Of a stretch of DNA of 64,000 nucleotides, positions 1,402-63,500 are shown piece after piece; positions within the stretch are counted from its first letter, which is position 1, and every line of letters starts with the position of its first letter. This DNA is from Micromonospora carbonacea (GTDB taxonomy: Bacteria; Actinomycetota; Actinomycetes; Mycobacteriales; Micromonosporaceae). A program made the translations under genes and the position numbers. Under the pieces are notes generated by a model. The model was not told where the DNA came from, ran no database searches, and saw only the letters and a program-made list of their open reading frames with translations. The stretch spans positions 1,462,001 to 1,526,000 of the forward strand of contig NZ_JACHMZ010000001.1 of NCBI RefSeq assembly GCF_014205165.1, read 5' to 3'.

Positions 1402-2193
1402 TCAGCGGGTCGCCGCCAGCCCCAGGTAGACCAGCGTGGTCACCACCTCCACGGTCGCGCCGAGCACGTCGCCGGTGATGCCGCCGAGGCGGCGTACCAG
1501 GTGGCGCAGCAGCAGCACCGCGACGGCGAGCGCGGCGAGCACGGCGACCGGCCCCTGCCACGGGCGGCCCGGCACGGCGGCGACCGCGACGGCCGCGACG
1601 GCGGCCACGCCGACCCCTGCCGCAACCGGGCCGACGGTGCCCGCGACCAGCGCGCCCAGCCCGTCGGGCCGGGCCGCCGGCACGCCGCGCCGGCAGGCCA
1701 GGGTGACCCCGAGCCGCCCGGCCGCCGTCGCCGCCACCACGCCCGCGAGCGCCGCCGGCCACGACCGGGCCGCCAGCTCCGCGAGGACCGCGGCCTGCGT
1801 CAGGAGTACGACCACCAGCGCGGCCACCCCGAACGGCCCCACGTCCGGCTTCTTCATGATCTCCAGCGCGGCGGTGCCCCGCCGGTACGACCCCAGCGCG
1901 TCGACGGTGTCGGCGAGCCCGTCCAGGTGCAGCCCCCGGGTGAGCAGCGCGCCCGCCCCGAGGGTCACCGCCGCGGCGACCAGCGGCGCAGCGACGGCCC
2001 CGACGAGCAGCAGCACCCCGGCCAGCGCCGCCCCGAGCAGGGCGCCGACCGCCGGGGCGGACGCCATCGCGACGCCCGCCGTGGCGCGGTCGACCCGGCC
2101 GGCGCGCACCGGCCAGACGGTGAACGTGGTCAGCGCCAGCCGCAGGCCGTCGCCGACGCGCCCCCCGCCGCCCGGGTGGGGGTCAGTCGGCAC
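1402..2193 (-). CDS. cobS: adenosylcobinamide-GDP ribazoletransferase (CobS)
   Basis: Integral membrane enzyme that joins alpha-ribazole(-phosphate) to adenosylcobinamide-GDP, the last step of cobalamin nucleotide-loop assembly. The 263-residue product has the family hallmarks: RLALTTFTVWPV near the start, LTRGLHLDGLADTVDALGS with its acidic residues, the EIMKKPDVGPFG loop, and several Ala/Val/Leu membrane segments. I chose the GTG at 2193 because it overlaps the stop of the CobU-CobT gene (GTG-CCG-ACT-GA), giving translational coupling and a normal family length; a longer open frame upstream lies inside cobUT and is not needed. Confidence 0.93.
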   Translation of the reverse strand: MPTDPHPGGGGRVGDGLRLALTTFTVWPVRAGRVDRATAGVAMASAPAVGALLGAALAGVLLLVGAVAAPLVAAAVTLGAGALLTRGLHLDGLADTVDALGSYRRGTAALEIMKKPDVGPFGVAALVVVLLTQAAVLAELAARSWPAALAGVVAATAAGRLGVTLACRRGVPAARPDGLGALVAGTVGPVAAGVGVAAVAAVAVAAVPGRPWQGPVAVLAALAVAVLLLRHLVRRLGGITGDVLGATVEVVTTLVYLGLAATR

Positions 2194-4273
2194 GCCGCCC
2201 GGCCGGATCCGGCTCCGGCCCGGCCGGCTCGGCGGCCCCGGCGGACGCGGTGGTCCCCGTGGACGCGGTGGTGCCCGTGGGCGCGGTGGTGGCCGGGCCC
2301 GGGCCGGCCGGCTCCGGCTCGACGAACTCCGCGCCGCCGTCGTCGCCGTCCGTGCCACGGTCGTCGTCGTCGGCGCCGCCCGTACCGTCGCCGTCGTCGC
2401 CCGCACCGTCGTCGCCCGCACCGTCGTCGCCCGCACCGTCGTCGCCCGTGCCTGCGGCAGCCGCCTCGTCCGCCACGGTCGCGGCGTCGTCCGGGCCCGG
2501 CCGCGCGGGCAGCGCGGCGGCCAGCGACAGCACCGAGCGCAGCAGCGGCAGCGCGGTCAACGCGTTCGCCCCCTCGCCGAGGTCGAGCCGCAGGTCCAGC
2601 AGGGGATCGAGGCCCAGCACGTCGGCGGCGAGCCGGACCGCCGGGTGGCCGCCGTGGTCGGCCAGCAGGCACCAGTGCCGGGCCTGCCCGGCCAGGTCCC
2701 GGCTGACCATGCCGGCCGCCAGGCCGACCGGGCCGTCCAGCAGCACCGGCAGCCGGCGGGCGGTCGCGCCGAGCAGCACGCCGGTCGCCACCGCGATGTC
2801 CCCGCCGCCCAGCTCGGCCAGCACGTCCTTGGCGTCGCGGGGCGAGCGCCGGGTGCGGTGCAGCGCGTCCCGGACCGCCGCACAGCGCCGCATCCACGCC
2901 GCGTCGTCGATCTCGCCGCCCGCCGTCACCACCCGGCCGAGCACCGCCGGTGGCTCCGCGCCGGCCGTCGCCGCGAGCACCGCCGCCGCGGCGGCGTCCG
3001 TGCCGGCTCCGCACGCCGCCAGCACCAGCAGCCGTACGCCCGCCTCGGCGGCCTCCTCGGCCAGCCGCCAGCCGTACCGCAGGGCCTGCTCGACCTGCTC
3101 GTGGTCCAGGGCCGGCAGGCGCTCGATGGGCTCGGACGCCGGCGTCTCGACGACCTGGAGGCTCGCGCCGTTCTCGGCGGCCAGCCGGGCCAGCACGCCC
3201 TGCCCGGCGCGGGCCTGCGCCGCCCGCCGGGCCGACTCCCCGGGCGGGGCGCCGGCGGCGGCCCCACCGGCGTGGTCGCCGTGCAGCAGCAGCACCCGCA
3301 CGCTGTCCCAGGGCTTCGGCGTCGGCGTGCCCTGGGTGGCCGCGGCGAAGCCGACCACCCGCTCCAGCACGCCCAGCCCGGCCCCGGGCACGTCCAGGGT
3401 GGCCAGCCGCTCGACGGCCTGCGGCCCGGTGTACTCGTCGGGCATCGGCAGCTCCATGCCGGGCTGGATGACCAGGCCCGTGGCGACCACCGGCAGCGCC
3501 ATCGTCGGCGCGGCCCAGGGCGCGCCGGCCGGCTCCGGTGCCGCGGTCGGGGTCAGCACCTGCGGCAGCGCCGCGCGGTCGTCGTGCCCACCGCCGGCCG
3601 CCGCCGTAGCCGTCGCCTGGGCGGCCGCCCCCTGCGCGGCCGTCGCCTGGGCGGCCGTCGTCGCGGCCGGAGCCGGGACCGCCGCCTGTGGGGCGGGGAC
3701 CGCCCCGGCCTCGCCGCCCGGCGCGGCGGGGGCCTTGAGCCAGCACGCCTGGCCGGCGACCACCAGCACCACCGCGTCGCAGGCGTCGGCCACCGCCCGG
3801 TTGGCCGCGCCGAGCGCGTCGACGAACGCCCGCCCCAACGGGGTGGTCGGCACCAGCGACAGCCCCACCTCGGGACTGACCAGCACCAACCGCGCCGGGC
3901 AGGCCCGCACCGCGTCGGCCAGCTCGGCGATGGTCGCCGTGTCGTCCGCCGGCTGGTGGGCCGGGTCGAGCAGCACGGTCACCCAGCCGCCGAGGTCGTC
4001 GACGAGCAGCGTCTCGTTCGGCCCGGCCGACGCGACGACGTCGGCCAGCCGGCGCGGGTCGTCGGCGGTCTCCTCGGTGGTCCACGACCCCGGCCGCCGG
4101 GCGCGATGCGCCTCCAGGCGGGCCGCCCACTCGGCGTCGGTCGGGTCACCGGCAGCCGAGGTCGCCACGTAGCGGACCGTGGGCGCCTCGGCGACCAGGG
4201 ACTCCGCGAACTCGGACTTGCCGGAGCGGATCCCGCCGAGCACCAGGACCGTGTTCCACCCGTCAACGGACAT
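2183..4273 (-). CDS. CobU-CobT fusion: cobinamide kinase/guanylyltransferase plus DMB phosphoribosyltransferase
   Basis: A 696-residue fusion of two cobalamin enzymes usually made separately. Residues 1-180 are CobU: P-loop GGIRSGKSEFAE, the EAHRARRP segment carrying the histidine that forms the GMP adduct, LLVDDLGGW, and VSPEVGLSLVP with LGRAFVDALGAANR. Residues ~181-255 are an Ala/Pro linker. Residues ~256-588 are CobT, which makes alpha-ribazole phosphate; the GEG motif with the family's catalytic Glu is kept (LDLGEGANAL). The usual GEMGIGNTT loop is replaced by CGAGTDAAA. The last ~108 residues form a disordered acidic tail with GDDGA repeats. The gene is coupled to cobS by stop/start overlap. 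Confidence 0.9.
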   Translation of the reverse strand: MSVDGWNTVLVLGGIRSGKSEFAESLVAEAPTVRYVATSAAGDPTDAEWAARLEAHRARRPGSWTTEETADDPRRLADVVASAGPNETLLVDDLGGWVTVLLDPAHQPADDTATIAELADAVRACPARLVLVSPEVGLSLVPTTPLGRAFVDALGAANRAVADACDAVVLVVAGQACWLKAPAAPGGEAGAVPAPQAAVPAPAATTAAQATAAQGAAAQATATAAAGGGHDDRAALPQVLTPTAAPEPAGAPWAAPTMALPVVATGLVIQPGMELPMPDEYTGPQAVERLATLDVPGAGLGVLERVVGFAAATQGTPTPKPWDSVRVLLLHGDHAGGAAAGAPPGESARRAAQARAGQGVLARLAAENGASLQVVETPASEPIERLPALDHEQVEQALRYGWRLAEEAAEAGVRLLVLAACGAGTDAAAAAVLAATAGAEPPAVLGRVVTAGGEIDDAAWMRRCAAVRDALHRTRRSPRDAKDVLAELGGGDIAVATGVLLGATARRLPVLLDGPVGLAAGMVSRDLAGQARHWCLLADHGGHPAVRLAADVLGLDPLLDLRLDLGEGANALTALPLLRSVLSLAAALPARPGPDDAATVADEAAAAGTGDDGAGDDGAGDDGAGDDGDGTGGADDDDRGTDGDDGGAEFVEPEPAGPGPATTAPTGTTASTGTTASAGAAEPAGPEPDPAGRRAD
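2392..2451. repeat. 15-bp tandem repeat, about four copies
   Basis: Four near-identical 15-base units (plus strand CGTCGTCGCCCGCAC, the last unit slightly changed). On the minus strand they encode consecutive Gly-Asp-Asp-Gly-Ala units in the acidic C-terminal tail of the CobU-CobT fusion. The unit is a multiple of three, so copy number can change without breaking the frame. Confidence 0.9.
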
Positions 4274-58525: not shown

Positions 58526-59353
58526 TCAGACCCGGGCGCCGTCGTCGGGGTCGTCGTCGGAGTCGCCGGGCCGCAGCCGCCAGATCAGCGTCACGAAGCC
58601 GGCGAGGATGCCGGTGAAGCCGAGCAGGGTCACCACGGACGAGTCCACCGGCAGCAGCGTCGGCTCCAGGAAGAGCACGAACCCGGCGACGATGGCCAGC
58701 ACGCCGGCCACCGCGTACTTGGAGACGCGGGGCAGCGGCGGTGGCGGCGGCGGGGTGTAGCGCTCGTCGGCGTCGTCGGGCAGGCCGGCGCCGAACGTGT
58801 CCAGCCCGTCCAGCAGGGACGGCTCGTCCTGCCGGCTCCCGCCGACGGAGACGCCCGAGACGTCGGCGGCCCACGGCAGCCGGCGTACGTCGGTGGCGGT
58901 GCCACCCTCGTCGGCGCCGACCCGGCCGGTCGTGCCGGCCGGCTGCTCGTCGGGCTCGTCGTCGATGTCCTCGGCGGCTGGCCAGGGATGCGCGCCGGCG
59001 GCTGGGGCGGTGTGGAAGCCGGCGACGATGCGGGCCCACTCGGCGTCGACGTCGGGCTCGTCGCGGGACGGGCCGGCGGGGGCCTCCTCGGCGAGCTGGG
59101 TGAGGTAGTCGCGTGCGGTCGTCAGGTGGGAGCGGTCGACGTAGAGCCGGTCCACGGGGCGGGCCGGGACGGTGGTGGTGCGGGTGACCGGGTTCAGGTC
59201 GGCCGACGGTTGCAGGTACGCGGCGATGCCGCCCGCGGCCAGGACGTCGAGCAGGTGCTCACCCACGCGCGGATCCACGTCGCCGGCGACCGCGTACTCG
59301 CTCGCGTCGAGCCCGTTGTCCCGCCGTCCCCGGCGGGCCCTACCCGCTGACAC
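58526..59353 (-). CDS. membrane-anchored hypothetical protein
   Basis: A 275-residue protein. Residues ~10-110 are an ordered N-terminal domain (LDASEYAVAGDVDPRVGEHLLDVLAAGGIAAYLQ, RPVDRLYVDRSHLTTARDYL) with a fold like DUF308-neighbour or SPOR-type alpha/beta units; I do not recognise it firmly. A disordered acidic stretch follows. Near the end are two membrane segments (YAVAGVLAIVAGFVLFLEPTLLP and VVTLLGFTGILAGFVTLIWRL). The C-terminus is acidic. The GTG at 59353 has AGGGAGG upstream. It is downstream of a palindrome-rich region and upstream of otsA. Confidence 0.75.
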   Translation of the reverse strand: MSAGRARRGRRDNGLDASEYAVAGDVDPRVGEHLLDVLAAGGIAAYLQPSADLNPVTRTTTVPARPVDRLYVDRSHLTTARDYLTQLAEEAPAGPSRDEPDVDAEWARIVAGFHTAPAAGAHPWPAAEDIDDEPDEQPAGTTGRVGADEGGTATDVRRLPWAADVSGVSVGGSRQDEPSLLDGLDTFGAGLPDDADERYTPPPPPPLPRVSKYAVAGVLAIVAGFVLFLEPTLLPVDSSVVTLLGFTGILAGFVTLIWRLRPGDSDDDPDDGARV

Positions 59354-60032
59354 CGGACATCCTCCCTCGCGCACCTCCCGGTGCGGTCGCCCCCGGCGCC
59401 CCGCACGCCGTGCCCTGAATCGTGACACGTCAGGGCCCCCTTCCGGGAGTGCGTTGTGGCGCGCCGTACGAAGTAAGGACCCTCCCGCAGGTCGGGGCGG
59501 GGCCTCAATGTCGGTTTTCGCTAATCGCTTGCCAACAGAAGCTCGTGGCCCGGCTCCCGCACCGACACCCCCGCCCGCCCCGGCACCCCGCTGCCCACCC
59601 CGTTACCCGGCTGCCCACCCCCTGTGCCGGCGCCTACGCAGCTGAGTCACCTACGACATCACCACTCCACCCTGCCTCCACCACCCCACCTTCCCCCACC
59701 CCACCCCCGCCCGGTCACCGCCCGCCGCGGTGATCAAGAGAGAAGCGTCAAAGTCGATCTCTGAGCTGACTCAGATTCCCGTGATCACCGCGTCTCTCGA
59801 TCACCGCGGCGGGGAGGGGGCGAGCCGGGGTGGGGGTGGAATGGGTGATGTCGTAGGTGACTCAGCTGCGTAGGCGCCGTAGCGCTGCGTCGTTCCTCGC
59901 GGCCTCGCGGCCTTCCGGCTTTGCCGCCTCGCGGCTTCGTGGCTTTGCGGCCTTCCGGCCTCGCCGTCCGCGCCGGGGCGCAGGGGTCCCGAGGGCGGGC
60001 CGGTCCGTCCGCAGTGGCCGGGCGGTGGCGGG
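59354..60032. other. gene-free region with a large palindromic element and T/C-rich low complexity
   Basis: 679 bases without a convincing gene. 59354-59627 shows only GC-rich sequence with CCCC/CACCCC runs and no coding signal. 59628-59879 is a nested palindrome described separately. 59890-59975 is low-complexity sequence built from GGCCTTCCGGC, GCCTCGCGGC and GGCTTTGC units, downstream of the cyclase-ATPase gene on the minus strand. Confidence 0.7.
59628..59879. repeat. 252-bp nested palindromic element (MITE- or REP-like)
   Basis: The outer arms are perfect 36-bp inverted repeats at 59628-59663 and 59844-59879 (ends CGGCGCCTACGCAGCTGAGT and its complement). Inner arms (~59719-59746 and ~59789-59814) are a near-perfect second inverted repeat around CCGCCGCGGTGATCAAGAGA. 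The core holds GTGATCAAGAGAGAAGCG and CTGACTCAG. No transposase is encoded. As one strand it could fold into a long hairpin. The AT-richer core stands out. I recall GATCAAGAGAGAA-type sequences in intergenic DNA of Micromonosporaceae; copy number cannot be tested here. Confidence 0.85.
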
Positions 60033-63000
60033 CTAGTCGGTGGTTCCGGCGAGGCGGAGCAGGCCCGGGGCGTGGTTGCGGGCGGCGAACCCGCGCACCT
60101 CGGCCAGCACCTGCGCCGCGCCCGCCGGGTCCACCTCGCGCAGGGTGGGCACCGACAGCGCGGCGGCGAGCACGTGGTCGGTCAGGTCGCCCATCCGCCG
60201 GTACTGCTCGGCGGCCGAGCGGAACAGCTCGGCGGCGGCCCGGGCGTCGCCGGCCGACCCGGCCAGCGCGGCCTCCGCCGCCTGCCCGGCGGCCCGGGCC
60301 CAGGGCGTCATCCGGGGCGCGGAGGTCAGCAGCCGGCGCACCCGGCGGGCCGCGTCCCCGCCGAGCACCACGGCGACGTGGCCGATCGCCGGCACCCACT
60401 CGGCGAACGGGATCTCCCGGGTCCGCCGCCAGTCCTCGTCCAGCTCGGCGAGCAGCCGCAGCGCCTCGGCCCCGCGCCCCTGCACGGCACGGCACAGCGC
60501 GGCGTGGGCCAACGTGGACCGCAGCACCCGGTGGAAGCCGGACCGCCGCCCGGCGGCCACCGCCCGCTCCACCTGGTCCGGGTCGCCGCCGTCGGCCGGG
60601 GCCTCCGGGTCGCCGCGCAGCGTCCGCATCCAGCCGGACACCGCGACGATGTGCATGTCCCACTCGCCGGTCGGCCGGCGCGTCGACTCGGCCGCCAGGT
60701 CCGCCGCCGCACCCCAGTCCCCGGCGTAGTACGACCGGGCCCACTGGTCCTCGAAGCTCGCGGTGAGGCTGTGCTCGCCGCCGAGGTCCAGCGAGCGCTG
60801 CTCGTCCACCAGCCGCGCCGAGCCGGCCAGGTCGCCCTCCTCCTGCAACGCCCAGGCCAGGTTGTGCACCGCCCGCCGGCGGCTGGCCAGCCGCTCCACC
60901 CGGCAGTGCTCGGTGATCTCGACCAGCTCCGCGTACGCCTCCGGCACCCCCGACAGGTAGCGGGCCACCGCGAGCGTGATCCGGGCGCTCGCGCTGACCT
61001 CCCGCAGCTGGAGCCGCTCGGCGAGGCTCGCCGCGGTCCGGGCCGCCGCGCACGCCGGCTCGGTCTCCGCGTTGAGCATGTGCACCCGGGCCAGCTCCAG
61101 CAGGGCGCTCGCCTTCTCCTCGCTGTCGGGCAGGTCGGTGTAGATGCCGATGGCCCGGTCCAGGCAGCGCAGCGTCTCGGCCCGGTCCGCCCGCCGCCAC
61201 GCGGCGGTGGCCAGCAGCGTCCAGGCCCGCGCCGCCCCCGTCGGCTCGCCGGCCCCGGCCAGCTCGCCGGCCAGTCGGGCCAGCCGCTGCGCGCCGCCGT
61301 CGACGAGGAACGCGTCCCCGTCGCGGAACAGCGCCAGCTCGGCGTCGAACAGCTCCAGCATGGGCTCGGGCCCGCCGGGCAGGACCAGCGCCCGCCCCAT
61401 CAGCGTCGCGGCGGTGTCCAGCGCGTGCAACTCGTACGCCCGGCGGGCCGCCCGGTGCAGCGCGGCCCGCGCCGCCGGGGCGTAGGGCACGGTGTCCAGG
61501 CCGACGGTGCGGGCGATCTCGTGCGCCGCCCAGCGGTGGTTGGCCAGCACCTCGACCAGGTCCTGCTGCCGGCCGTCGGTGACCTGCTCCAGCCAGTCGG
61601 CGGTGCTCTGGTGGCGCGCCACCCGCTCGGTGCGGGGCAGCCGCTGATAGCACACGTCGCGCACCAGGACGTGCCGGAAGCGGTACTCGGGCTGGCCGGG
61701 CATCGTCGAGCTGGGCTGCTCGTAGACCAGGTCCCGGCGCTGCAACCGGCCCAGCGCCCGTTCCACCCACCGCACCGGGCGACCCAGCGCGGTGGCCACC
61801 GGCCCCGGCCAGAACTGCACGCCGACGACGGCGGCGGCCTGGAGCACCGCCCGGTCGGCCGGGTCGAGCAGGTCGAGCCGGTTGGCGATGACCGCCTGCA
61901 CCGTGCGCGGCATCTCCGGCGTACGGGCCGGGTCGGCCCGCCCGGCGGGGTCGACGAGCCCGCCGTCGAGCAGCATCCGCGCGTACTCCTGGGCGTAGAG
62001 CGGGTTGCCGTCGGCGAACTCGATCAGCGGCCCCCGGGACGCGGGCAGCAGCGCGGACTGCCCGAGCAGCAGCGCGTAGAGGGTGTCGATGTCGGAGTCG
62101 TGCATCGGCGGCACCGAGATCGACATCGCCCCGCTGATCGTGCCCGTCCAGGCCGGGTGCCGCTCCCGCAGCTCCGGCCGCGCCGTCGCCAGCACCAGCA
62201 GCGGCACGCCCCGGGCCGCCGCGCCGAGCTGCTCGACGAAGGCGAGCATCGCCTGGTCGGCCCAGTGCATGTCCTCGAACACCAGCACCGTCGGGCCTGC
62301 CTCGGCCAGGGCGAGCAGGAACCGCCGCCAGGACGTCTCGGTCTCGCCCGGGGTGAGCCGCTCGCCGGGCAGGCCGATGAGCGGGCCGAGCGGATCGGCC
62401 AGCCGCACCGCGTGCGGGTCGCCCAGCCTGGCCAACCGCTGCCGCAGCCGGTCGCCGAGCGCCGCCGGGTCGTCGACGTTCGCCACGCCGACCCAGCCCT
62501 TCACGATGTCGGCGAGCGCGGCGTACGTGACGTTCTCGCCGAACGGCGGGCACTGCCCGACCAGCCAGGTGATCGGCGGGCCGGGCAGGCTGGCGGCGTG
62601 CCGGGCCAGCTCCCGCAGCAGCCGGCTCTTGCCCACCCCCGCCGAGCCGAACACCGTGACGAGCTGCGAGGTGCGCTCGGTCACCGTGCGGTGCAGGGCG
62701 TTGACCAGCAGGCCGCGCTCGTGTTCCCGGTTGACCATCGGGGTCAGCTCGGCGGTGGTCAGGTCCCGCTGGGGCAGCGCCCGCACCGCCAGCCAGATCC
62801 GGCTGACCGCGGAGCGGCCCCGCAGCGTCACCGGCGGCCGGTCGGCGTACTCCATGTCGTGCCGGGTCGCCGCCCAGGTGCTCTCGTCGACGACCACGCC
62901 GCCCGACGGCGCGAGCGACTGCAACCGGGAGGCGGTGTTGACCACGTCCCCGGTGACGAAGCCCTGCCCGCCGTCGCGGGCGGCGGACAGGTCGACCAGC

Positions 63001-63335
63001 GCCTCGCCGGTGGCGATGCCGACCCGGAAGCCGAGCGGCGGGTGCGGCCCGGCCGGCTGGCGGGCCAGGTTGCGTTGCAGCTCCAGCCCCGCCCGGACGC
63101 AGCGCAGGGCGTCGTTGTCGGTGGCCACGGGCGCCCCGAACAGCGCCATCACCGCGTCGCCGATGAACTTCTCGACCACCCCGCCGTACTGGTGCACCAG
63201 CCGCCGTACGGTGGCGAAGTAAGCCTGCTGGAGGTTGCGGGCCTGCTCCGGGTCGGCCCGCTCCGCGTACGTCGTGAAGTCGACGATGTCGATGAACAGG
63301 ACGCTGACCTGCCGGCGGTCCTCCTGCACCACCAT
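60033..63335 (-). CDS. class III adenylate cyclase with AAA/NACHT-like ATPase and TPR region
   Basis: A large signalling protein, 1100 residues from this start. Residues ~8-175 are a class III cyclase: VLFIDIVDFTTYAERAD (metal Asp), VVEKFIGDAVMALFG (Lys that selects ATP, second metal Asp), GFVTGDVVNTASRLQ (Asp, Asn, Arg). All catalytic residues are present, so cAMP synthesis is likely. Residues ~200-520 are a P-loop ATPase (GSAGVGKSRLLRELAR, VLVFEDMHWADQAML). The rest is helical, TPR-like. The same frame stays open upstream and encodes two zinc ribbons without an ATG, GTG or TTG; see the adjoining feature. A stop codon lies before 63560. Confidence 0.9.
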   Translation of the reverse strand: MVVQEDRRQVSVLFIDIVDFTTYAERADPEQARNLQQAYFATVRRLVHQYGGVVEKFIGDAVMALFGAPVATDNDALRCVRAGLELQRNLARQPAGPHPPLGFRVGIATGEALVDLSAARDGGQGFVTGDVVNTASRLQSLAPSGGVVVDESTWAATRHDMEYADRPPVTLRGRSAVSRIWLAVRALPQRDLTTAELTPMVNREHERGLLVNALHRTVTERTSQLVTVFGSAGVGKSRLLRELARHAASLPGPPITWLVGQCPPFGENVTYAALADIVKGWVGVANVDDPAALGDRLRQRLARLGDPHAVRLADPLGPLIGLPGERLTPGETETSWRRFLLALAEAGPTVLVFEDMHWADQAMLAFVEQLGAAARGVPLLVLATARPELRERHPAWTGTISGAMSISVPPMHDSDIDTLYALLLGQSALLPASRGPLIEFADGNPLYAQEYARMLLDGGLVDPAGRADPARTPEMPRTVQAVIANRLDLLDPADRAVLQAAAVVGVQFWPGPVATALGRPVRWVERALGRLQRRDLVYEQPSSTMPGQPEYRFRHVLVRDVCYQRLPRTERVARHQSTADWLEQVTDGRQQDLVEVLANHRWAAHEIARTVGLDTVPYAPAARAALHRAARRAYELHALDTAATLMGRALVLPGGPEPMLELFDAELALFRDGDAFLVDGGAQRLARLAGELAGAGEPTGAARAWTLLATAAWRRADRAETLRCLDRAIGIYTDLPDSEEKASALLELARVHMLNAETEPACAAARTAASLAERLQLREVSASARITLAVARYLSGVPEAYAELVEITEHCRVERLASRRRAVHNLAWALQEEGDLAGSARLVDEQRSLDLGGEHSLTASFEDQWARSYYAGDWGAAADLAAESTRRPTGEWDMHIVAVSGWMRTLRGDPEAPADGGDPDQVERAVAAGRRSGFHRVLRSTLAHAALCRAVQGRGAEALRLLAELDEDWRRTREIPFAEWVPAIGHVAVVLGGDAARRVRRLLTSAPRMTPWARAAGQAAEAALAGSAGDARAAAELFRSAAEQYRRMGDLTDHVLAAALSVPTLREVDPAGAAQVLAEVRGFAARNHAPGLLRLAGTTD

Positions 63336-63500
63336 CGGCCGGTCCCGCAGCGGCTGCCCGCAGCTGGTGCAGAAGTTGGCCTCGACGTTGTTGGCGTGCC
63401 CGCAGGCGGCGCAGCCACGGGTCAGGGCCTGCCCGCACCCACCGCAGAAGCGGTCGTCCGGACCGGCTTCGCGTGAGCAGTGTCCACACTTGAGGTCGAT
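63336..63500 (-). other. in-frame double zinc ribbon upstream of the cyclase ATG
   Basis: In frame with the cyclase gene this stretch encodes KCGHC..FCGGCG and GCAACG..FCTSCGQ, a double zinc ribbon of the kind often found at the head of such cyclase-ATPase proteins. No ATG, GTG or TTG precedes it in frame. An ATC at 63498-63500 has GGAG six bases upstream, and a CTG lies at 63510-63512. The true start is probably one of these, giving about 1155 residues. Confidence 0.6.

Follow-up and report, generated by a model that had tools for sequence, protein, structure and literature searches.

At positions 59628-59879 of the window, the 64,000-nt stretch of the single-contig, 7.53-Mb genome of Micromonospora carbonacea that was analysed here (genome G000; window G000:C1:1462001-1526000), lies a 252-bp nested palindrome that, judged by its sequence, combines two repeat families, with an inverted pair of family B units on the outside and a family A hairpin within. 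The reading we favour, which we hold with belief and doubt in about equal measure, is that the palindrome represents an old REPIN/MITE-like inverted pair of putative protein-recognition sites with a nested A repeat, the arms of which may have been kept perfect by template switching. Each arm would be a putative sequence-specific site, made of an octamer and a near-palindromic two-block core around a free 4-bp spacer. The inverted B pair would have dispersed in the distant past as a non-autonomous, REPIN/MITE-like element, would now be vertically inherited in this genome, and would be repaired against itself through template switching or gene conversion between the arms; we propose that the arms are perfectly complementary because of such self-repair, and not because the insertion is young.

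Structure of the palindrome and its neighbourhood

The outer arms are complementary at 36/36 bp and stand 180 nt apart. At gaps of up to 400 nt, no other perfect inverted repeat in the window is as long (the runner-up has 21 bp), and the arms far exceed the longest inverted repeats, of 13-18 bp, in 20 first-order Markov sequences derived from the window. An earlier note on this DNA had described a nested palindrome with 36-bp perfect arms across 180 nt, a second pair inside it and no coding gene across it, and all of this is borne out: the inner pair is perfect over 15 bp (59721-59735 with 59799-59813) and sits within a 62-nt pair that is 73% complementary, and no likely gene crosses the palindrome, which is flanked by minus-strand genes at 58526 to about 59350 and at 60033-63335. 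A 1234-aa open reading frame on the minus strand (59785-63489), taken from the mechanical ORF list, shares its DNA with the cyclase gene but in a different frame, and was not counted as a gene. The features of the region are listed below.

58526..59350, minus strand: flanking gene for a 274-aa product without a Pfam match; the palindrome lies upstream of its start, which is uncertain and possibly at 59428
59628..59663, plus strand: left outer arm, a family B unit with the local outward extension CGGCGCC; exact reverse complement of 59844-59879, kept in M. haikouensis
59635..59642, plus strand: outer octamer of the left arm, TACGCAGC (family consensus TAGGGAGC), a two-base variant common to both arms and both species
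59643..59661, plus strand: core of the left arm, TGAGTC-ACCT-ACGACATCA, with the free spacer at 59649-59652
59664..59843, plus strand: interior, with a C-rich left half, a G-rich right half and the family A hairpin between them (from the alignment with M. haikouensis)
59721..59735, plus strand: left side of the inner perfect 15-bp pair, the pair noted earlier
59729..59750, plus strand: family A left half-site of the inner hairpin, GGTGATCAAGAG-nnnn-GCGTCA (G000:C1:1521729-1521750), 0 mismatches
59767..59789, minus strand: family A right half-site of the hairpin, decayed in G000 and better preserved in M. haikouensis (boundaries by eye)
59799..59813, plus strand: right side of the inner perfect 15-bp pair, resembling by eye a partial duplicate of the A half-site (GATCACCGCGGCG)
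59844..59879, minus strand: right outer arm, family B (core 59846-59864, spacer 59855-59858, octamer 59865-59872)
60033..63335, minus strand: flanking gene with an adenylate/guanylate cyclase domain and an AAA ATPase; the palindrome lies downstream of its stop

As single-stranded RNA, the palindrome is predicted to fold at -175.6 kcal/mol (z -14.6) on the plus strand and at -190.2 kcal/mol (z -14.2) on the minus strand, and 0/200 shuffles were as stable on either strand. Rfam gave no match above the gathering score; the best of three sub-threshold matches, MIR839, reached 74.1 bits against a cut-off of 200, and a microRNA identity was rejected, the match being read as a long-hairpin artefact. 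Directly to the right of the palindrome, at 59895-59966, an imperfect unit of the CCTCGCGG/CCTTCCGG type gives six overlapping 32-nt matches in 8-bp steps, for which the alignment with M. haikouensis is poor.

In G002, G004, G019 and G021, the gap between the two genes that flank the palindrome holds a gene for a plsC-like acyltransferase (Pfam PF01553 in G021), which is truncated at this locus in G010 and was not detected there in G000 or M. haikouensis; the loci compared were window 59351-60032, L271, L272, L115, L112 and L269. Since this gene is present in the gap of relatives and undetected in these two species, the palindrome apparently occupies the site of a gene loss.

The two repeat families

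Unit B reads TAGGGAGC-TGAGTC-nnnn-ACGACATCA, the window version beginning with TACGCAGC, and occurs at about 24 intergenic loci in this 7.5-Mb genome, namely 21 listed elements, one arm at 870 kb and two remnants found through M. haikouensis. Uniqueness to this locus, which the earlier note had named as a refuting outcome, is thus rejected, as the arms recur across the genome, and the many intergenic copies with conserved ends for which it had proposed to search are present. The 29-base arm consensus was found at 15 places in G000 with up to 3 mismatches and, once three spacer bases were freed, at 27 places with up to 2 mismatches, the reversed control giving 0 in both cases; element counts, made with patterns allowing 2-5 mismatches, miss more decayed copies. 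Two end types can be distinguished, with the octamer TAGGGAGC outermost and the near-palindromic core TGAGTC-nnnn-ACGACATCA after it in either orientation, one or both cores being flipped in some pairs. Two ends are kept in 15 of the 21 elements, 62-453 bp end to end and with interiors that vary by locus, and the other six have a single recognisable arm, so that the inverted pair is dispensable at those loci. Like a MITE, the window-type element combines terminal inverted repeats, no coding capacity and multiple copies, and no called gene spans any of the 21 elements in a simple codon-usage gene call; at L058, one predicted gene end intrudes by 3 bases, its stop codon being the TAG of the element.

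Most B ends in G000 are flanked by TA or CTAG, with some variation, and a TA/CTAG target duplication was rejected as proof of the B boundary: the terminal bases (TATGGAGC, TTTGGAGC, TTTCGAGC) differ between species and therefore belong to the element. In M. haikouensis, the CTAG of a B arm was used as a target by a later insertion sequence (L038, about 2105-3541), which has ends TAGTGCTTTGTTAGGT and encodes a transposase that contains a DDE_5 domain (Pfam PF13546) and that we take to be of IS701 type; it is inserted exactly at the CTAG, which is duplicated, and G000 lacks it at the same locus. At another locus of G000 (L245, G000:C1:3160005-3161106), the B palindrome has collapsed to TAGGGAGCTGAGTCAGCTGCGTAGG, apparently through a deletion between short arm repeats, and M. 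haikouensis retains both arms.

Family A, of which the inner hairpin is a member (GGTGATCAAGAG-nnnn-GCGTCA, frequently arranged as inverted pairs), has 18 half-site matches in G000, including 59729-59750. At the window locus, the right half of the hairpin is decayed and is followed by a partial extra half-site, and an A hairpin also lies inside two further B loci of G000, at 3900878 and 1132066 (all by eye). Matches to the half-site number 117 in another Micromonospora (G011) and, for two genomes from other genera, 11 and 12; of the 61 genomes searched, 57 gave no match. The other-genus genomes G219 and G214 carry A in sequence variants of their own, making it a second and wider palindromic repeat family.

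Family B, among the genomes searched, appears essentially limited to Micromonospora. A GGAGC-containing pattern with one mismatch matched in 46/160 genomes of the genus including our own, with 1-30 matches each, and in a family-wide sample B matched in 3/8 genomes within the genus vs 0/113 outside it. The core alone matched in 19/41 genomes including our own (16/25 in the genus and 3/16 outside), and the three outside genomes, each with one single one-mismatch match, are taken as chance, the reversed control having likewise matched once in another genome. The outer bases of B vary by species. In the genome contig collection, the exact 23-base arm had 0 matches, and the same arm with its spacer freed had 14 loci, all in M. 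haikouensis. The regions spanning the window-locus gap in G001, G002, G004, G010, G019 and G021 contain no B units, a 3-mismatch core match elsewhere in the G004 locus being taken as chance, and G007 has a B pair of its own type at the window locus. A plasmid origin was rejected, as 72,556 plasmid records (blastn, E 1e-5) gave no match to the palindrome. Among the paper titles listed for repeats of Micromonospora, MITEs of actinobacteria and the motifs themselves, none names family A or B, which does not prove their absence from print.

Age of the palindrome and constancy of its arms

M. haikouensis (G061; G090, with identical contig coordinates, is evidently the same genome) is the nearest named relative that we met, its copies of the two flanking genes being 96.6% and 97.5% identical to those of G000, and it carries the palindrome between the same two genes. 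As the same element stands at the orthologous site, it is not a recent insertion, and the orthologous copy shows that the palindrome predates the split from M. haikouensis. The arms have been kept while the interior turns over: they are identical at 46/46 constant positions, with the TACGCAGC octamer in both arms, and the interior of M. haikouensis is longer and largely rewritten, the A hairpin excepted. The earlier note had taken perfect arms to imply recent insertion or gene conversion; recent insertion is not supported, given the orthologous copy, whereas some homogenisation of the arms is likely.

The two species share B positions at many other loci. Ten further loci were compared by their flanks, eight chosen in G000 and two in M. 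haikouensis. Seven of the eight carry one or both arms in M. haikouensis, six of them between both flanks and the seventh (L071) with an arm, identical to that of G000 including the spacer, beside the right flank only, the left flank being on another contig. At L060, the left flank is present, but the 2.5 kb beyond it contain no right flank and no arm, and the locus is not comparable. At the two loci chosen in M. haikouensis, G000 still has remnants, a single arm in one case and a collapsed palindrome in the second. The 11 locus comparisons between the two species thus include no clean empty site, and G010, with its flanks at 89%, is unreadable as a base-level empty site, since the truncated plsC-like gene lies there.

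Across 34 orthologous arm pairs at 19 loci, 11/782 constant arm positions differ between the species (1.4%) vs 30/136 positions of the 4-base spacer (22%), a contrast that is partly built in, as the search patterns fixed the constant positions and freed three of the four spacer positions, and as pattern searches also yielded 12 of the 19 copies in M. haikouensis. In nine flanking genes, 176/2294 four-fold-degenerate sites (7.7%) differ, a rate from which both the constant positions (Fisher p 1e-12) and the spacer (p 4e-7) deviate. This comparison covers 19 of the 21 elements, L060 and L071 being left out and L071 entering none of the difference counts. The M. haikouensis copies found by flanks only, a cleaner but small subset, differ at 3/253 constant positions, or 3/299 with the window locus included, which is below even half the four-fold rate (p 0.012 and 0.003, respectively), a threshold chosen to allow for ascertainment in G000. 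With moderate confidence, we take these differences to reflect purifying selection on the B arm as a putative recognition site.

Within elements, the spacers of the two arms match at 43/60 positions in G000 vs 28.2 when shuffled (p 5e-5), and at 32/60 vs 30.4 in M. haikouensis, which is not significant (p 0.35) and speaks against the favoured reading. At the window locus, both arms of G000 have the spacer ACCT, while those of M. haikouensis, with GAAT and ACAT, do not match; further out, each species has its own version in both arms, CGCC in G000 and CACC in M. haikouensis, and the two-base octamer variant is found in 4/4 arms of the two species. Such matched changes fit repair of one arm from the other and do not need a recent insertion. 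In one account of template switching (PMC8794818), each arm of an imperfect inverted repeat serves to correct the other. Maintenance of this kind would fit the window palindrome, where arm correction is inferred from the matched changes.

Mobility and possible roles of family B

In one relative (G137), the B pair occupies the middle of a 334-335-bp element with CAGGGT-type ends, present in three copies with 10-bp target duplications (GGGTGCGCCC, CCGGCCGGTG and GATCATTGRC, the first two perfect and the third matching at 9/10), and related copies occur in G116 and G010. On this sequence evidence, B pairs were carried by a transposable element in that relative. The MITE (CAGGGTSATTGCG element of G137, G116 and G010) has terminal inverted repeats around its central B pair, whereas in G000 and M. 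haikouensis the B pair exists outside the MITE; no CAGGGT ends were seen by eye around the window palindrome. Two B-less MITE copies in G010 were rejected as empty sites, since they look like imprecise deletions. A further CAGGGT-type pair of inverted ends in G137, 2.25 kb apart (L273 535-2782; G137:C35:163034-165281), encloses a Peptidase_C39_2 gene, with no transposase seen by eye among its ORFs of at least 130 aa; it was rejected as the autonomous CAGGGT element, a C39-like peptidase gene being found instead of a transposase, and may be a transposon that carries a passenger gene.

None of the loci examined held an autonomous element with B ends, and neither the PF01797 search of G000 nor the candidate ORFs of G137 yielded a transposase for the window B element or the CAGGGT MITE. 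The PF01797 search, on which the absence of a RAYT rests, gave one match in G000, an IS200/IS605-type TnpA beside an OrfB_IS605 (OrfB/TnpB) gene, with no B or A units in the 6 kb around it. On that search, mobilisation by a RAYT was rejected, as its single Y1 transposase match is of the IS200/IS605 type.

REPINs have been described as short conserved units in intergenic inverted pairs with a less conserved spacer, forming hairpins and leaving singlet remnants (PMC3116915); they depend on RAYTs, and the REP families described in these sources are mostly from Proteobacteria (PMC3733652, PMC3116915). Family B likewise consists of conserved intergenic inverted pairs in many copies, with singlets, but its interiors reach several hundred bp and differ between loci, the PF01797 search of G000 revealed no RAYT gene flanked by B units, and the 11 comparisons gave no clean empty site. 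The GTAG/CGTC REPs are small palindromic intergenic units that form dimers and species-specific variants, some without a dedicated transposase (PMC3733652, the main text of which has 0 mentions of 'actinob', Micromonospora, Salinispora or Streptomyces). B units are also small, palindromic, paired and intergenic, with species variants, but by eye no invariant unpaired GTAG or CGTC tag is present in the 34 arm pairs. The mobile, REP/BIME-like element suggested by the earlier note is partly supported, as a dispersed intergenic REP/BIME-like or MITE-like inverted repeat with conserved ends; of the checks proposed there, no clean empty site was seen against M. haikouensis, and the G000 copies offered no demonstrable target-site duplication.

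It is somewhat unlikely, in our estimate, that the palindrome is a selfish relic only, that is, an old REPIN/MITE-like element without a host role, whose arm conservation stems from identical ends at insertion and from the search method. The 6/21 solo arms and the one-armed or collapsed remnants at two more loci would fit such a relic, as would the amplification of the B pair as MITE cargo with 10-bp target duplications in G137 and the fact that no conserved gene neighbour was noticed beyond 3' ends; however, decay would then be expected even along the arm, whereas the flank-only copies are conserved (3/299) while spacers and interiors change.

A role as a terminator or mRNA 3'-end stabiliser, with the long hairpin stopping or protecting neighbouring transcripts, seems distinctly unlikely, despite the very stable predicted fold and the gene context of the elements. 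Nine of the 21 B elements lie between convergent genes, 11 between tandem genes and one between divergent genes, vs 10, 46 and 17 among the 73 background gaps that measured 100 bp or more (convergent 9/21 vs 10/73, Fisher p 0.011), these gaps being drawn from the window and eight loci that themselves hold B elements, and the genes being called by a codon-usage script trained on three genes. A gene 3' end adjoins 20/21 elements, but many inert repeats collect at gene 3' ends too. Moreover, termination requires pairing and not a fixed arm sequence, some elements are one-armed or have unpaired spacers, the window copy starts some 150 bp away from the stop upstream of it, and no GC hairpin with a T-run was found on either strand of 59351-60032 in a scan limited to loops of up to 8 nt. 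Highly improbable is a MatS-like chromosome-organisation site, at which one nucleoid- or partition-type protein would bridge or loop DNA between paired sites: about two dozen constrained-motif sites, mostly inverted pairs and essentially genus-limited among the genomes searched, would suit it, but they show no marked regional clustering by eye and are sparse at 2.2-5.0 Mb, and the 0-30 matches per genome of a fixed pattern in 160 genus genomes are unexpected for a conserved housekeeping site.

Beyond the favoured reading of an old inverted pair with self-repaired arms, we speculate, as a tentative and rather unlikely proposal, that B may be the site of a putative Micromonospora-specific DNA-binding protein that acts on inverted pairs through looping, insulation or recombination, in which case the site and not the DNA between the arms would be selected at some twenty loci, with species-specific co-evolved versions.

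Taken together, a high-GC actinobacterial genus has an inverted-pair family of its own with no visible RAYT, the ends of which appear constrained at fixed loci while the interiors churn. Family B thus makes testable the long-standing question of when a selfish palindromic repeat turns into a host site, and its loci provide a natural set for studying how cells keep long palindromes perfect.
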